Source: Methanohalophilus halophilus
GTDB lineage: Archaea; Halobacteriota; Methanosarcinia; Methanosarcinales; Methanosarcinaceae
Assembly (NCBI RefSeq): GCF_001889405.1
Contig: NZ_CP017921.1
Coordinates: forward strand, 820,057 to 884,056
DNA: 64,000 bases
Direction of reading: 5' to 3'
Part shown: piece by piece, positions 47,473-55,277 of the stretch
Layout of the letters: each line of letters starts with the position of its first letter
Numbering within the stretch: position 1 is the stretch's first letter
Position numbers and translations under genes: made by a program
Notes under the pieces: generated by a model
The model's input: the letters and a program-made list of their open reading frames with translations, nothing else
Database searches by the model: none
Told to the model about the DNA's origin: nothing

Positions 47473-48162
47473 ATGTATACCGAGAGAACCGAAGAATATC
47501 TGGAAACCATACAGGGTTTGATCAATCGCACCAGTTCCCCGGCCAAGAACAAGGATATAGCAAAGGAACTTGAAATATCTCCGGCAACAGTTACTGAAAT
47601 GATACAGCGCCTATCGGATGAAGGCCTTGTGACTCATGCTCCTTATCGCGGGGTTGAATTGACTGAATCCGGAATAACACAGGCCAATAATCTTCAGCGC
47701 AAACATCTGGTGCTCAAGAACTTTTTCACCAGGGTACTTGATATAAATGAAGAAGTAGCGGACCAGGAAGCCTGTGCGCTCGAACATGTTATGTCAGATG
47801 TTGTACTTGAAAGAATGTGCTCTTATCTGGCAGAAAAAGGTCTTTGCGATATTTCTGAAACCACTCTGCCTTCTAAATGTAGTTTGAGCAGGGAACATTA
47901 TATTTCTCTTGTAGAAATGAATGAAAAGACTAAAGGAAAAGTGGTAATGGTTGCCCTGCCAAAAGAGACCAAGGATAGGCTCACTTCACTGGGGATGGTT
48001 GCAGGTGAGGATATTGAAATCAAAAGAAAACAAAAACAGGGATGTATTTCTATAATTACCAAGGGTACTGAAATAGCCCTGGGAAATGAAGTGGCAGAGA
48101 AAATTTTTGTAAAACCTGCAGAAAAAGAGCACAGTCTGCGGAGACGTGGTAAACATTCCTGA
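47473..48162 (+). CDS. DtxR-family metal-dependent regulator with FeoA-like domain
   Basis: 229 residues. N-terminal winged helix (1-65: SSPAKNKDIAKELEISPATVTEMIQRL), a metal-binding dimerisation domain (66-140: GITQANNLQRKHLVLKNFF, DQEACALEHVMSD with Glu/His ligands) and a C-terminal SH3-like FeoA domain (about 155-222: GKVVMVALP, RLTSLGMVAGEDIEI). Expected to repress iron uptake when Fe2+ is bound. It overlaps feoB by 17 bases, so feoB is the obvious target. Confidence 0.92.
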   Translation: MYTERTEEYLETIQGLINRTSSPAKNKDIAKELEISPATVTEMIQRLSDEGLVTHAPYRGVELTESGITQANNLQRKHLVLKNFFTRVLDINEEVADQEACALEHVMSDVVLERMCSYLAEKGLCDISETTLPSKCSLSREHYISLVEMNEKTKGKVVMVALPKETKDRLTSLGMVAGEDIEIKRKQKQGCISIITKGTEIALGNEVAEKIFVKPAEKEHSLRRRGKHS

Positions 48163-50119
48163 TTCATGCTGCGGTGCAGCCGAAAAACGCATGCATGATG
48201 GCGATCATGACATGACAATTGCCTTTGTTGGCAATCCCAGTGTAGGTAAAAGCGCTTTTTTTTCCAGGGTCACCGGTGTGGGTGTCATGGTTTCCAATTA
48301 TCCGGGAACCACCGTGGAAATGACACGTGGGACTGTAAAGGTTGGCCGGAAGAAGATAGATATTGTGGATTTGCCAGGTATTTATTCACTGGGTACGTCC
48401 ACAGAGGATGAACGGGTCTCAAAGGAATACCTGCTGCGTGAATATCCTGATGTAATCGTGAATGTGGTGGATGCCACACGCCTAGAACGTAACCTGTATC
48501 TTACCCTCCAGATACTGGAACTCGGTGTACCCGTAGTAATTGCCCTCAATCAGCTGGACGCCGCCAGGGAAATGGGTATTGATATTGACGCCCCTAAATT
48601 ATCCCAGATACTTGGTGTGCCGGTTGTACCTACTGTTGCCACCAAGGGAATCGGGCTTGATGAAGTCCTGAAAGAAGCAGTAGATCCATCCCTTTCACCA
48701 GAAGGGCGAATCCGTGTTCACTATGATAATCATATAACTGAAGCTATCAATGACCTTGGTGTGGATTTTCCTGATACGGCTTCTGTAATAAAATTGCGTG
48801 CTCTTGAAAATGACGCTGATTTTGTGCGCATGTGCTGCAGACCCCACGAAGCAGACCTGCTTCTATCAAAGGCTTCAGAAATGGCTTCAGGGATTGAAGA
48901 TGTCCACGACATGGCGATTTCAGATACCATGGCAAGGGACCTCTACGGGGAAGCTGGACAGATTGCAGACTCTGTCCTGTCAATTGTGGAAAAGGACACT
49001 TCTCTAAAGCATCGTATTGATGACATGCTCACATCTGAATATGTGGGTGTCGTGGGTCTTGCAGCGGCCCTTTTACTTACTTTCCTTCTGGTTTTCAGGG
49101 TTGGAGGATTCCTGGAAGAGGGGATCGTCCATCTTTTTGAAACCTACCTGATAGCTCCGGTTGAAGCGGAACTTGCAACAAGCAATCCTATTGTGCGCAA
49201 TGTGATTATCTACTCCCTGCTGGGCATAGAGGCTGGATTTGCCATTGCAATTCCCTACATAGGGATTTTTTATATTATTCTCTCCATTTTCGAGGATTCG
49301 GGATACCTGACCCGCGCAGCCTTCCTGCTGGATAACCTTACTCACAGGATGGGGTTGCATGGCAGGGCAGTAATCCCCCTGGTCCTGGGACTGGGCTGTA
49401 ATGTACCGGCTATCATGGCTACCCGTGCATTGAATACATTGAGAGAGAGGCGTATCGCTTCGGTTCTCATATCTCTTATTCCATGCTCTGCAAGGACTGT
49501 TATTATTCTGGGACTTGTAGGAACATTTGTAGGTTATTGGGCTGCAGTATCAATATATGTGCTGGAAATCTTTATAATTTTCATAACCGGCTGGATACTT
49601 GGTAGGGGTCTTCCGGGGGAGCGAACCGGTTTTATAATGGAAATGGGTCCGTTGAGGCATCCTGATGTTGTATCCACTCTTAAAAAGACCTGGCTCAGGA
49701 TACGTGAGTTCATCTACATTGCTTTTCCTCTATTGATAGTGGGGAGTGCATTACTGGGTGGGCTGGATACCCTGGGTATCCTGGATATTTTCGAGAATGC
49801 CGTATCCCCTATATCTGTAGGGATTCTCGGTCTGCCTGCTTTTGCTGCCACAGCACTTGTATTCGGTATCCTGCGCAAGGAAATGGCGCTTGAGATTCTG
49901 GCGGTGCTTGCGGGTACTGCTAATTTTGCAATGGTATTGACGCCTCTGCAGATGTACGTGTTTGCTGTAATTACAACAATATATATTCCCTGTGTTGCAA
50001 CCATTGCAATACTAAAACATGAGCTGGGTACAAAGGATACGGTTATGATTTCCACATTCACGATACTCCTTGCATTCACCGTGGGCGCCTTAATCTACCA
50101 AATTGGAATGCATTTGTAA
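48146..50119 (+). CDS. feoB: ferrous iron transporter FeoB
   Basis: 657 residues. N-terminal G domain: G1 GNPSVGKSAFF, G2 in VSNYPGTTVE, G3 DLPGIYSL, G4 NQLD; a helical region to about 275; then Gate-type membrane helices (about 290-650) with LGLGCNVPAIMATR. A CC pair precedes the G domain (PDSCCGAAEK). The GTG at 48146 overlaps dtxR; ATG codons at 48191 and 48212 are possible alternative starts. Fe2+ import at the cytoplasmic membrane; FeoA function may be supplied by the regulator's fused domain. Confidence 0.94.
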   Translation: MVNIPDSCCGAAEKRMHDGDHDMTIAFVGNPSVGKSAFFSRVTGVGVMVSNYPGTTVEMTRGTVKVGRKKIDIVDLPGIYSLGTSTEDERVSKEYLLREYPDVIVNVVDATRLERNLYLTLQILELGVPVVIALNQLDAAREMGIDIDAPKLSQILGVPVVPTVATKGIGLDEVLKEAVDPSLSPEGRIRVHYDNHITEAINDLGVDFPDTASVIKLRALENDADFVRMCCRPHEADLLLSKASEMASGIEDVHDMAISDTMARDLYGEAGQIADSVLSIVEKDTSLKHRIDDMLTSEYVGVVGLAAALLLTFLLVFRVGGFLEEGIVHLFETYLIAPVEAELATSNPIVRNVIIYSLLGIEAGFAIAIPYIGIFYIILSIFEDSGYLTRAAFLLDNLTHRMGLHGRAVIPLVLGLGCNVPAIMATRALNTLRERRIASVLISLIPCSARTVIILGLVGTFVGYWAAVSIYVLEIFIIFITGWILGRGLPGERTGFIMEMGPLRHPDVVSTLKKTWLRIREFIYIAFPLLIVGSALLGGLDTLGILDIFENAVSPISVGILGLPAFAATALVFGILRKEMALEILAVLAGTANFAMVLTPLQMYVFAVITTIYIPCVATIAILKHELGTKDTVMISTFTILLAFTVGALIYQIGMHL

Positions 50120-50391: not shown

Positions 50392-51183
50392 TTACCAGTC
50401 AGGCGTGAGATTGAGCAGTTTAACTACATCCCGCAGGATGTCTGGATCAAACTCATCATCTATCCTGTAGTCACTTATTACGTGGCCTTCAAGGCTGATT
50501 CCATCCACGTAACCGTACCAGTAGATAATCATTCCACTGCCGTATAATTCTTCATAGTGGGAAAACTGCTTTTTGAGATAGGTCTGATGATCGTTTTCGT
50601 TACCAAATACGGCTTTGCTTTCGATCCAGCTTATCTGCTGTCCCCGGATCTCAACAGGATCTGGAAGTAAAAAATCAGGTGTCTTTTCTGCACTTTGCTT
50701 TCTCAATTCTTCTTCTGTCAGATATTCGATATTTCTGTATTCAAGCCACCTGGCTACAATCATTTCTCCTAATATTCCTTTCCTGGCCTGAAAAGAGTGG
50801 GCTTCAGGTGAGAAATAGAGGTCTATTTCAAGGGCTTCCTTTATTTCAGATGCAAGCCGGTTATCTTCTATCTCATCGAGATGGTTGAATACATATTTCT
50901 TGGACATCCCCATCTCTTTTAGCAGTGTTGTGGCTATAAGTGTAGGAGGGAATTTGTATTCTTCTGAAAGTTGAATTATACTACTGCCGCTTTTCCATTT
51001 TTTGAGCAGTAAAGCACTTTTATTCTGGATAATGTAGTATTTTTTCTTGACATAATCGATAATTTTCTGGTGCAGGATGGAAGCGACTACGCCTACTGGC
51101 TGGCAGTAATCCAGGGCCAGTTTTTCGAAATCTGAAGCATCCGTGACGCTTCGGTGTATCTCATCGTATTCAGTTTTGTCCAT
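50392..51183 (-). CDS. TPD-motif nuclease-like protein (CDIN1/C15orf41 relative)
   Basis: 263 residues. The C-terminal half carries the TPD signature KTPDFLLPDPV and SWIESKAVFG, which form the PD-(D/E)xK nuclease active site; N-terminal half is helical (EEYKFPPTLIATTLLKEMG, HTH-like). It is related to the human CDAN1-interacting nuclease 1 family, whose archaeal members are uncharacterised. The start overlaps the glycosylase gene by 14 bases, so the two are translationally coupled and may act in the same DNA-repair step. Confidence 0.82.
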   Translation of the reverse strand: MDKTEYDEIHRSVTDASDFEKLALDYCQPVGVVASILHQKIIDYVKKKYYIIQNKSALLLKKWKSGSSIIQLSEEYKFPPTLIATTLLKEMGMSKKYVFNHLDEIEDNRLASEIKEALEIDLYFSPEAHSFQARKGILGEMIVARWLEYRNIEYLTEEELRKQSAEKTPDFLLPDPVEIRGQQISWIESKAVFGNENDHQTYLKKQFSHYEELYGSGMIIYWYGYVDGISLEGHVISDYRIDDEFDPDILRDVVKLLNLTPDW

Positions 51184-51790
51184 CCTTGTTCCCCTTCAGG
51201 AGACATTTGTCGCACTGCCTGGTTGAACAGTACCTTTTAGCATACTCAACTATCAGGGCGTGGTATTCCTTATACATTTCCACATCATTTGGAATGTTTT
51301 TCTCAAATGTTTCCTGCAGCTGGTGATAATTACCCTCAATTCCTATACATCGCATTATTCTGGTTGTATATGCATCAATTACAAAACGGGGTTTTCCGGC
51401 AGCATATAACAGGATGCTATCTGCGGTTTCAGGTCCGATACCCTTTAATTCAAGTAAATGCCTGCGTAGTTTTTCTGCTGGAAGTGAAAAAAGTACTTCT
51501 TCACCGTGATTATAAAAAAAGTTTGATATTCCTTTTAACCTGCTGGCTTTTTGTCTGTAAAATCCGGTACATCTGATATCCTCTTCAAGTTCCTGCAGAT
51601 CCATCTCTGCCAGTTTGCCGGCTTCAAGAACATTTTTCTGTTTGAGGTTATCGATAGCTTTATCCACATTAGTCCATTTTGTCTGCTGTGTAAGCATTGC
51701 TCCCACGATAACTTCAAAAGGGGTTTCAGCAGGCCACCACTGCTGTGAACCAAATTCCCGGATTAGTGTGTCATAGACAGACTGCAGCAT
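51170..51790 (-). CDS. HhH-GPD DNA glycosylase, endonuclease III-related (MagIII-like)
   Basis: 206 residues. Helix-hairpin-helix LKGIGPETADSILLYAAGK, then the catalytic Asp in FVIDAYTTRI. The lyase lysine of endonuclease III (GRKTA) is replaced, reading GPETA, so the enzyme should be a monofunctional glycosylase like Helicobacter MagIII. The C-terminal cluster region has only three cysteines (YCSTRQCDKC) instead of four. Substrate likely alkylated or other damaged bases. Confidence 0.87.
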   Translation of the reverse strand: MLQSVYDTLIREFGSQQWWPAETPFEVIVGAMLTQQTKWTNVDKAIDNLKQKNVLEAGKLAEMDLQELEEDIRCTGFYRQKASRLKGISNFFYNHGEEVLFSLPAEKLRRHLLELKGIGPETADSILLYAAGKPRFVIDAYTTRIMRCIGIEGNYHQLQETFEKNIPNDVEMYKEYHALIVEYAKRYCSTRQCDKCLLKGNKDGQN

Positions 51791-51812: not shown

Positions 51813-52193
51813 TTATCTGTCGGACCAGAACTCTTCTTCATAATCATCTGGAAGGTCAAGTTCCATTGCTTTGTCTATACTTTTCCTCTTTCCTTCTGTG
51901 GATATCTCTCTGTTTTTTTCTTCCGTGGGAGCCTTATTGCTCTCTGGTTGTGGGATTTCCTCTGTGGGTTCTCTGGAATCTACCGGTGGCTCTGTCCTGT
52001 CCCTGAGTTTTTCCTTCACACGCTGGGCATATTCATCCACTACAGATTCGGAACTCTTTCTCATTTTTGTGGTCTGATTATATCCAACGGAACAATTTTC
52101 ATCACCGGTACGCCAATCCACATGGTAGAGGTGACACTTTCTTTTTTTGCACACCTGGGTCCCATCAATGGGACATATTTCCGGTAAAGACAT
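51813..52193 (-). CDS. hypothetical protein with N-terminal Cys/His cluster
   Basis: 126 residues. The first 35 residues hold CPIDGTQVCKKRKCHLYHVDW and a further Cys at GDENC, which may bind zinc or a cluster. The rest is charged, low-complexity Glu/Pro/Lys (about 50-110), ending YEEEFWSDR. Not recognised. Lies 22 bases before the glycosylase gene and 27 bases after prs in the same direction. Confidence 0.6.
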   Translation of the reverse strand: MSLPEICPIDGTQVCKKRKCHLYHVDWRTGDENCSVGYNQTTKMRKSSESVVDEYAQRVKEKLRDRTEPPVDSREPTEEIPQPESNKAPTEEKNREISTEGKRKSIDKAMELDLPDDYEEEFWSDR

Positions 52194-52220: not shown

Positions 52221-53069
52221 TTAGAGGCTTTTAAGGGTGTCGGCTATCAGGGGGGCTACCGAAATACTGCTCTGTGGTTTTTCAAGGGTATCAGTGGATA
52301 TAATCTCCTTGACACCGGCATTGTAAAGACGCACCACAGCATTGCGTGCAAGTACGGGGTGTATACAGGCAACATATATGTCTGCTGCACCCTGCTCTTT
52401 AAGCATACGGATAGATTCTGACATGGTACCACCGGTTGCAATCATGTCGTCCAGCAGTATCAGGTCCCTTCCGCTCACATCAATCTCTTTTTCAGCAATC
52501 GTTACACTTTCTCCGTTATGCCTTGTTTTTTCAAGTTGTTCGTAGGGAATGCCTATATCTGCAGATGCACTTTTTGCAAGTTCGAGGGCACCGACATCCG
52601 GGGAGATTATGAGTGGATCTGTCAGGTTCAGGGAACGTATATGATTCCCGATCAAGTGTGAAGCGTCAAGGTCAAAGGAATCGGCATTGAAATGTTCAAG
52701 TATGCTCCTCTCATGTATGTTTACCGTGAAAACCCTGTCAGCGTTAATGGTTCTGGCAATTGCACGCGCACTGACGGGTTCTCCCCGGTTGAAGACTTTG
52801 TCCTGTCTGGCATATCCCATATAGGGTATTACAACGTTGATGGTTGGTGCTTCCTCACAAGCATCTATTAATTGTAGCAAGGCTACATAATCGCTATCTG
52901 TAGGTGTGCTCTGTATGATAGTAACATCATCGATGCTGTCATCCCTGATGCGGGTATACAGTTCCCCGTCAGGGAATCTTTTATAGTCACATATTGTGGG
53001 AGGCGTATTGAGTTGCTGTGCCACTCTGGAGGCAAGCAATTGGGAAGCTGGTCCGGCTATTATTTTCAC
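52221..53069 (-). CDS. prs: ribose-phosphate pyrophosphokinase
   Basis: 282 residues, the shorter archaeal form. Makes PRPP from ribose 5-phosphate and ATP. Features: CDYKRFPDGELYTRI, IPYMGYARQDKVF, VNIHERSILEHF, and the PRPP loop LILLDDMIATGGTMSES. It supplies PRPP for the histidine, purine and pyrimidine genes seen in this window. The 62-base gap after moaC may hold its own promoter. Confidence 0.96.
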   Translation of the reverse strand: MKIIAGPASQLLASRVAQQLNTPPTICDYKRFPDGELYTRIRDDSIDDVTIIQSTPTDSDYVALLQLIDACEEAPTINVVIPYMGYARQDKVFNRGEPVSARAIARTINADRVFTVNIHERSILEHFNADSFDLDASHLIGNHIRSLNLTDPLIISPDVGALELAKSASADIGIPYEQLEKTRHNGESVTIAEKEIDVSGRDLILLDDMIATGGTMSESIRMLKEQGAADIYVACIHPVLARNAVVRLYNAGVKEIISTDTLEKPQSSISVAPLIADTLKSL

Positions 53070-53131: not shown

Positions 53132-53599
53132 TCAGCTTTCTTTCACTTTATGGATTACCCCAATATCAGTGATCCGGGTATGGGGATAGTTTCCGGTTGC
53201 ATCCTTTTCAAGTGCCTTGACCATGTCCCATATTGCAAGGAGGGCACAGCTTACGCCTGTAATTGCTTCCATTTCCACGCCGGTCTGGCCTCTGGATTTG
53301 ACCGACAGGTCAACAGTAATCCTGTCCTCACGTATCTCAAAATCCATGTCGATACCGGTTATCGGGATCTGGTGGCACATAGGAATGAGCTCAGGAGTCT
53401 TTTTGACAGCCATTATGGCGGCAATGCGGGCGGTGGCCAGTACATTGCCCTTTTCGACATCTCCCTTTTGGATTTCTCCAATGGTTTCTTCACAAAGGAA
53501 TATACTGCCCCGGGCAAGAGCACTGCGTTTCACTTGACTTTTTTCGGACACGTCTACCATATGGACATGGCCATCCTTGATGTGAGTGAATTCTCCCAC
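53132..53599 (-). CDS. moaC: cyclic pyranopterin monophosphate synthase
   Basis: 155 residues. Second step of molybdopterin formation, needed for tungsten/molybdenum formylmethanofuran dehydrogenase. Family landmarks: HMVDVSEKSQVKRSALARG, KGNVLATARIAAIMAVKKTPELIPMCHQIPI, TGVEMEAITGVSCALLAIWDMVKALEKD. Located between a small protein and prs in one minus-strand run. Confidence 0.96.
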   Translation of the reverse strand: MGEFTHIKDGHVHMVDVSEKSQVKRSALARGSIFLCEETIGEIQKGDVEKGNVLATARIAAIMAVKKTPELIPMCHQIPITGIDMDFEIREDRITVDLSVKSRGQTGVEMEAITGVSCALLAIWDMVKALEKDATGNYPHTRITDIGVIHKVKES

Positions 53600-53810: not shown

Positions 53811-55277
53811 TCATTGTTTCATAATGTCTGTAATATGTTCGATCACATCGGTTGCCAGCAATCCGTACCCCTTTTTTGCAAAAGCAACATCTCCTGCCTC
53901 TCCATTAACAAATGCTGCACAGCAAGCGGCATTCAACGCATCCGTGCGACAGAACAGGGCACCAACGATTCCCGTGAGCACATCTCCTGTGCCGCCAACG
54001 GACATACCTGCATTTCCGCTATAGTTATGTCTTATGTATCTGCCGTCAGAAATTATATCGGTTTTTCCCTTAAGGACGGTTATAACTTCATTTTCCCGGC
54101 AAAAATCCTGTAACATTTTGGCTCTTGCAGGCAGTTCTTTTTCAACCTCTTTTCCTATAAGTCCGGTTAATTCCCGGGAATGGGGTGTAAGTATCATTTC
54201 ACAATTTTCAGGAGAGGGTAGTTGTAATCCATTAAGGGCATCTGCGTCCACAACAACTTTCTTGCATAAAGGAAGGATTTGGTGTATTGCCTGACGTATT
54301 TTTTCTTCGTTGCCCAGCCCCATTCCAATAACCACCACATCGTGTGCATGAATAAGGTCTTTTAAGACATCAATATCTTTTGTATGCAGGAGGTCAGAGG
54401 ATAATTTCCTGACAATGAGGTTGGGGGAAAATGAGGCAATTGTATCCGAAACATTTGCCGGGGATGCAATGGTCACGATGTCTGCACCAGTGCGCAGGGC
54501 AGCCATTGCTGACAGGGCTGGTGCTCCGGAGTATCTGCCTCCTCCGATTATAAGTACCCTGCCGGACTGTCCTTTATGTGAATCAATATGTCGTTTGAGC
54601 AGAGGTTCCAGATCCCCCCAGTTTACAGCATCTTCTGCGTCCCTGCAAACACCGATATTAACAACTTCGACATCTCCTGTGTATTCACCCTGATTTTCGA
54701 GTCCGGTTTTCATTCTGTGGAATGTCAGGGTTGTATCTGCCATGACAGTATTCTCAATCTCACCAGTAGCAGGATCAAGGCCTGAGGGAGTGTCTACTGC
54801 AACCACATAGGAATTGCCGGTATTTATGGCATCTATTAATGTAGCTACAGGTTCCCTGGCAGGTCCCCGGATGCTCATGCCAAGCAGGCCGTCTACAATG
54901 ACATCCGCTTCTTTGAACCATTGGAAAATGCCGGATTGTGTAGAATCCGTAATTTCAGCCAGGTCATTAATACCACAATGTTTCAATAAATTGAAATTTT
55001 CCAATGCGTCATTTGTTCTTATGCCGGTTGCTTTCCCCGCCAGGACCACCCTAACACTGATATTATCATAATAACTTAGATGGCGGGCAGCAACAAATGC
55101 ATCGCCGCCATTATTTCCCCTTCCTGCCACAATCAATACATTGTTGTGAGCATCCAGGGATAACACTTTACGTGCAATTGCAGCTCCTGCATTTTCCATA
55201 AGCTGTATCCCTTTCAATCCCAGATGTGTGCAGTTTGTGTCTATGGCTTTCATTCTGTCAGGTGTAATAGATTGCAT
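53811..55277 (-). CDS. nnr: bifunctional NAD(P)H-hydrate epimerase / ADP-dependent dehydratase
   Basis: 488 residues. N-terminal YjeF epimerase (about 1-215: NVLIVAGRGNNGGDAFVAARHL, VVDGLLGM), C-terminal ribokinase-like dehydratase (about 220-485: RVLIIGGGRYSGAPALSAMAAL, ILTPHSREL, NAGMSVGGTGDVLTG with the catalytic GTGD). Repairs hydrated NAD(P)H. Upstream DNA up to 55350 is shared with the divergent DHH gene. Confidence 0.95.
   Translation of the reverse strand: MQSITPDRMKAIDTNCTHLGLKGIQLMENAGAAIARKVLSLDAHNNVLIVAGRGNNGGDAFVAARHLSYYDNISVRVVLAGKATGIRTNDALENFNLLKHCGINDLAEITDSTQSGIFQWFKEADVIVDGLLGMSIRGPAREPVATLIDAINTGNSYVVAVDTPSGLDPATGEIENTVMADTTLTFHRMKTGLENQGEYTGDVEVVNIGVCRDAEDAVNWGDLEPLLKRHIDSHKGQSGRVLIIGGGRYSGAPALSAMAALRTGADIVTIASPANVSDTIASFSPNLIVRKLSSDLLHTKDIDVLKDLIHAHDVVVIGMGLGNEEKIRQAIHQILPLCKKVVVDADALNGLQLPSPENCEMILTPHSRELTGLIGKEVEKELPARAKMLQDFCRENEVITVLKGKTDIISDGRYIRHNYSGNAGMSVGGTGDVLTGIVGALFCRTDALNAACCAAFVNGEAGDVAFAKKGYGLLATDVIEHITDIMKQ

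Follow-up and report, generated by a model that had tools for sequence, protein, structure and literature searches.

Background

Congenital dyserythropoietic anaemia type I is caused by mutations in CDIN1. We take this human protein (C15orf41) to belong to Pfam family PF14811, whose archaeal members we call TPD. Publications on CDIN1 are cited here from partial texts, in which the human protein is laid out as two HTH domains followed by a nuclease (PMC7261414) and a human-archaeal E value of 1e-34 is given for the family (PMC7092493). Its partner Codanin-1 (CDAN1) has younger roots than CDIN1 itself (PMC7092493), and has been compared with CNOT1, the scaffold of the CCR4-NOT complex (PMC11911400). 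According to the same partial texts, RNA and RNA stem-loops were inactive as substrates with CDIN1-Codanin-1, as were Holliday junctions and flaps (PMC7261414); no nuclease activity of CDIN1 has been published (PMC13370696), and neither a substrate nor an activity has been established (PMC11911400, PMC13370696, PMC7261414). Because the word 'abasic' is absent from the available portions of PMC7261414 and PMC13370696, an abasic substrate seems to be untried there. Among the matches listed in a literature search, which returned titles, none tied CDIN1, C15orf41 or PF14811 to a glycosylase, to aRF1 or to NMD3.

The other described system that bears on the locus is the HhH-GPD superfamily of DNA glycosylases. 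MagIII, MpgII and the uracil-DNA glycosylase (UDG) of M. jannaschii have Glu at the position of the lyase Lys (PMC11754123, partial text). In the same source, a crenarchaeal HhH-GPD relative with this Glu, and with Ser in place of the catalytic Asp, increased the cleavage of AP-containing single-stranded DNA.

The locus and its two proteins

The window analysed here is a stretch of 64,000 nucleotides from Methanohalophilus halophilus. The features considered below are as follows, with the evidence for each in parentheses.

50392..51183, minus strand: TPD (PF14811, CDIN1-type) PD-(D/E)xK protein, 263 aa, with a helical N-terminal part (Pfam, alignments, model)
51170..51183, minus strand: 3' end of the glycosylase gene and 5' end of TPD, which overlap by 14 nt (ORF coordinates)
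51170..51790, minus strand: MagIII/MpgII-like HhH-GPD DNA glycosylase, 206 aa, with Glu121, Asp139 and Cys188/193/196 (Pfam, alignment)
51813..52193, minus strand: orf4, a small protein whose N-terminus is rich in Cys and whose C-terminal end is acidic (between Prs and the glycosylase or TPD)
52221..53069, minus strand: ribose-phosphate pyrophosphokinase (Prs), upstream in the same string (Pfam, neighbour lists)
53132..53599, minus strand: MoaC, string member (Pfam, neighbour lists)
53811..55277, minus strand: NAD(P)H-hydrate epimerase/dehydratase (Nnr), string member (Pfam, neighbour lists)

Elsewhere in the window, the plus strand carries at 47473-50119 two genes that overlap by 17 nt, one for a DtxR-type regulator with a fused FeoA domain and one for FeoB.

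The preliminary description of this DNA had named the two overlapping genes as a MagIII-like glycosylase and a CDIN1-type nuclease, and both identities were borne out. The TPD protein scores 163.1 bits against PF14811, for which the Pfam cut-off is 27. In alignments of 20 and 51 TPD sequences, E140, T168-P169-D170, E188-S189-K190 and Q206 are invariant, and the PD-(D/E)xK catalytic residues (the TPD motif and ExK) are conserved. Like human CDIN1, then, the protein combines membership of PF14811 with PD-(D/E)xK residues and a helical part ahead of the nuclease domain; unlike human CDIN1, which works with Codanin-1, its gene follows that of a glycosylase. The link to CDIN1 stands by virtue of the Pfam family and the published E value (PMC7092493, partial text), and is silent on substrate.

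A structure model of TPD was obtained with a pLDDT of 94 and a pTM of 0.88. Residues 135-252 of the model found AF1548 as their best match in VIA (Z 7.3), with a restriction enzyme second (6.9), both within the range of Z below 8 where, as the tool warns, a match may reflect no more than a common arrangement; residues 1-121 were barely tested by this comparison. Lower matches were to restriction enzymes and to viral cap-snatching endonucleases. The modelled nuclease core thus appears to resemble DNA cutters and RNA cutters alike, and because Z stays below 8 we name no closer nuclease family. Foldseek returned zero matches to the model at E <= 0.001, and a sequence search of solved structures found no credible relative, the best E value being 0.82. 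An alanine racemase that appeared at E 0.013 in a profile search of solved structures was taken as a chance match.

The glycosylase matches the HhH-GPD family at 63.6 bits (Pfam cut-off 26.2), and among solved structures its best match is 1pu6, the MagIII of H. pylori, at 97 bits. Its score against the curated MagIII equivalog NF010494 is 123.3 bits, short of the cut-off of 192, and by this sequence measure the protein is MagIII-like only. It shares the HhH-GPD fold and the catalytic Asp (Asp139 of the GPD motif) with EndoIII (nth), but differs from it in scoring 70.4 bits against TIGR01083, where 211.7 are required, in having Glu121 aligned with the lyase Lys, and in lacking the fourth Cys of the cluster. 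The remaining three, Cys188/193/196, form a C-x4-C-x2-C arrangement, which is a further difference from MagIII. Three Cys are common to 10 MagIII-like rows of the alignment, linked and unlinked to TPD, the exceptions being L059 and L060 with one Cys each; L156 and L157, the two EndoIII-type proteins that the window's genome encodes, retain the Lys and all four Cys. The missing lyase Lys and the three-Cys cluster reported earlier were therefore confirmed, and the Glu at the Lys position is that of H. pylori MagIII, T. maritima MpgII and the M. jannaschii UDG. A retained Asp together with Lys replaced by Glu makes it likely that the enzyme is monofunctional, as had been claimed; what does not carry over is the certainty of that claim, because the crenarchaeal protein with the same Glu increased the cleavage of AP-containing single-stranded DNA (PMC11754123, partial text).

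The glycosylase gene is the upstream member of the pair, and the overlap of 14 bases claimed for it is exact: the ORFs at 50392-51183 and 51170-51790 share positions 51170-51183. Since related species have kept the pair, both ORFs are real genes. A GAAGGGG lies 7 nt 5' of the TPD ATG, and co-translation of the two genes is probable. As evidence for a functional tie, however, we dropped the overlap, because 7 of the 40 neighbouring same-strand pairs in the window overlap (counted over mechanically listed ORFs of at least 90 aa). At other loci the glycosylase gene overlaps that of an F420 oxidoreductase by 4 nt (L062) and that of a class II aldolase by 28 nt (L066), so for this gene an overlap with an unrelated neighbour is nothing unusual; at another locus it adjoins a proteasome subunit gene (L063).

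Linkage of the two genes across relatives

The survey covered a single phylum, through 392 genomes sampled evenly from a larger group, and a named collection comprising the best 80 of 118 TPD relatives; what lies beyond the phylum is represented by a few Hydrothermarchaeota-like loci. PF14811 is present in 115 of the 392 genomes: 60 of the window's own family (f1), 4 of f2, taken as ANME-2, and 51 of f9, presumably Archaeoglobaceae-like. Among the 64 TPD genomes of the order (f1 and f2), 41 have the glycosylase directly upstream of TPD on the same strand, and this adjacency is limited to six genera of one family. Within those genera, the pair is retained in all 41 sampled TPD genomes (g1 7/7, g3 8/8, g5 20/20, g6 2/2, g13 1/1, g16 3/3). 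The preliminary description had suggested a survey of linkage as a check on its proposal of a two-part repair unit; outside the six genera, ours finds the genes unlinked (0/15 in g14, which includes Methanosarcina, 0/4 in g15 and 0/4 in f2), an outcome that by the terms of that description speaks against the unit.

At a threshold of 88 bits, which was our choice, the glycosylase type is absent from 52 of the 115 TPD genomes; it occurs in the other 63, adjacent to TPD in 41 of them. Conversely, 72 of the 135 genomes with the glycosylase type are without TPD. In other words, the two genes do not stay together across relatives, and an obligate pair is ruled out by the genomes that hold one alone.

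The best 80 of 118 named loci give a similar picture: 36 are linked, 40 are without such an upstream glycosylase, and 4 end too close to TPD to be classed. Linked loci come from Methanohalophilus, Methanolobus, Methanococcoides, Methanomethylovorans, Methanosalsum and one ANME-3 genome, and unlinked loci from Methanosarcina, Methanimicrococcus, ANME-2 and Pyrohabitans. One locus, L116, was absent from the ORF-based lists and was entered as linked through tblastn. The majority of linked pairs overlap or almost abut. Sixty named loci reach 4 kb or more upstream of TPD: 25 of them have Prs and the glycosylase there, 24 Prs only, 3 the glycosylase only, and 8 neither, which gives 49 loci with upstream Prs and 28 with an upstream glycosylase. 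Methanosarcina loci have the same Nnr-MoaC-Prs-orf4 string followed by TPD, with no glycosylase. The orf4 gene, which matched no Pfam family, sits upstream of TPD at many Methanosarcinaceae loci, including some without the glycosylase.

In a tree of 54 glycosylases, 38 linked rows and one from a locus without TPD (L064) fall on one fork, whose support of 87/89 lies below the tree tool's star mark; two label changes are needed to account for 'linked'. The neighbours of this fork include unlinked glycosylases from ANME-2 and from other families. Methanosarcina-type glycosylases branch outside the others, a position that may be false because long branches meet there, with EndoIII. As the tree and distribution would have it, the glycosylase and TPD were probably joined in one event.

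In six ANME-3-like loci, a label that rests on L108 and its tree clade, the setting of the pair differs: it follows a YhbY gene (82.6 bits in L096). Three of these loci extend at least 4 kb upstream, and they have neither Prs nor MoaC there. The order is YhbY, glycosylase and TPD, then, where the contig reaches, a convergent Rad50 gene; Rad50 and Mre11 beside TPD are presumed to be such from their sequences. Since the pair outlived this one rearrangement, the ANME-3-like context is a point for a functional tie.

Taking sequences, motifs, distribution and neighbours together, we infer as the best explanation that the two enzymes are cotranscribed but functionally separable, their genes being paired as a matter of local operon layout and not as the halves of a dedicated repair machine, and we consider this reasonably probable.

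Other upstream partners of TPD

The genes found upstream of TPD elsewhere bear on what TPD may do. We examined 49 of the 51 TPD loci of f9, leaving out G287 and G306. In 32 of them, a gene for an NMD3-domain protein of about 90 aa is directly upstream of TPD (gap below 200 nt), with an overlap in 22; the two such proteins that were scanned score 34.1 and 34.5 bits (Pfam cut-off 24.9). The remaining 17 loci, classified by eye with one per class scanned, have DHH (8), TGT-related (2), divergent PHP (3) and other genes (4); L173, where an NMD3-like ORF lies 351 nt upstream, was counted as other. A MutS_V gene is among the further upstream neighbours. TPD follows aRF1 by 9-51 nt in all four f2 loci (L048-L051; one scanned), and also in named ANME-2 loci. 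The neighbour cluster labelled 'pelota' merges aRF1 and Pelota, which NCBIfam separates (L048 is aRF1, L040 is Pelota).

Two of the 49 f9 loci have an EndoIII-type gene upstream of NMD3-TPD, called by domain scan in L040 and by tree position in L191. At both (L040:4828-6620 and L191:2409-4097), the EndoIII-type, NMD3-domain and TPD genes of these Archaeoglobaceae-like genomes form one overlapping run.

By their sequence assignments, the partners of TPD seem to lean to translation, and TPD and CDIN1 could accordingly be surveillance nucleases for RNA or the ribosome, in mRNA or rRNA quality control, with the glycosylase a later and incidental operon partner. The frequent and often overlapping NMD3-domain gene and the aRF1 gene speak for such a role, as do the two TGT-related genes and the YhbY gene before the ANME-3-like pair (one of each scanned), and a core that resembles RNA cutters as well as DNA cutters would suit it. 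However, genes for RNA and translation are common neighbours in archaea, and other partners (Prs, PHP, MutS_V) are not RNA-related. The numbers are raw neighbour counts within lineages, whose members are not independent; because each partner is common to one lineage, independent cases are few. The partial texts on the human protein point both ways, with CDAN1 likened to CNOT1 (PMC11911400) but RNA and RNA stem-loops inactive with CDIN1-Codanin-1 (PMC7261414). We judge a surveillance role to be unlikely.

Each gene without the other

Within the window's family, one genome (G227, locus L064) keeps the glycosylase in the string with TPD absent. In Methanohalophilus profundi (L004/L077) the glycosylase is intact and TPD is split by a frameshift, which could be a pseudogene or a sequencing error. 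Another genome of the window's genus (G006, locus L012) has one in-frame TAG in the glycosylase gene and one in the TPD gene. These may reflect pyrrolysine read-through or decay; we assume that TAG is used for pyrrolysine in this family.

Genes for Xth, an AP endonuclease of the ExoIII type (322 bits, cut-off 99), and for a separate EndoIII (251 bits, cut-off 212) are present in the window's own genome, whose EndoIV match is below the cut-off. With an Xth-type AP endonuclease and EndoIII present, no AP endonuclease is missing.

These observations weigh on the repair unit of the preliminary description, in which TPD may cut the DNA at the abasic site that the glycosylase leaves; the gene overlap would then fix the ratio of the two enzymes. 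Such a unit would make sense of the overlap itself, of a glycosylase whose lyase Lys is replaced by Glu, of a pair retained in every sampled TPD genome of six genera and through one change of context, and of a second glycosylase, the EndoIII-type gene, near TPD in two f9 loci; the absence of 'abasic' from the available portions of PMC7261414 and PMC13370696 leaves room for a substrate that seems untried there. But the linkage is bound to one lineage, either gene occurs alone elsewhere, and the genome already has an ExoIII-type AP endonuclease and an EndoIII, so that we find a dedicated unit distinctly unlikely. That TPD is instead a resolvase-like repair nuclease for branched DNA is very unlikely: Rad50-Mre11 genes are convergent to TPD in Methanosarcina and ANME-3-like genomes and the model has restriction-enzyme-like fold matches, but genes on the opposite strand do not form one operon with TPD, and Holliday junctions and flaps were inactive with CDIN1-Codanin-1 (PMC7261414, partial text).

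Proposed roles and significance

If the two enzymes are cotranscribed but functionally separable, as we prefer to think, the MagIII/MpgII-like glycosylase would flip a damaged base out of the helix, with Asp139 activating water, and, having Glu instead of Lys, would probably leave an abasic site for the genome's ExoIII-type AP endonuclease to incise. TPD would act in a pathway of its own, independent of the glycosylase, as a metal-dependent PD-(D/E)xK phosphodiesterase (D170, E188, K190) whose helical N-terminal part may bind nucleic acid. The two genes would have been brought together a single time, in a common ancestor of some Methanosarcinaceae, and the glycosylase gene would since have stood in the Nnr-MoaC-Prs-orf4-TPD string with orf4 on one side and TPD on the other.

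For the family as a whole, linkage to a glycosylase does not serve generally as the clue to CDIN1 that the preliminary description had seen in it; the NMD3-domain gene and aRF1 are other recurrent partners. A surveillance role would matter more, because the human substrate is not established and Codanin-1 has been likened to CNOT1; if true, it would fit that published likeness (PMC11911400, partial text). Archaea carry single-gene versions of CDIN1, some of them in cultured species.
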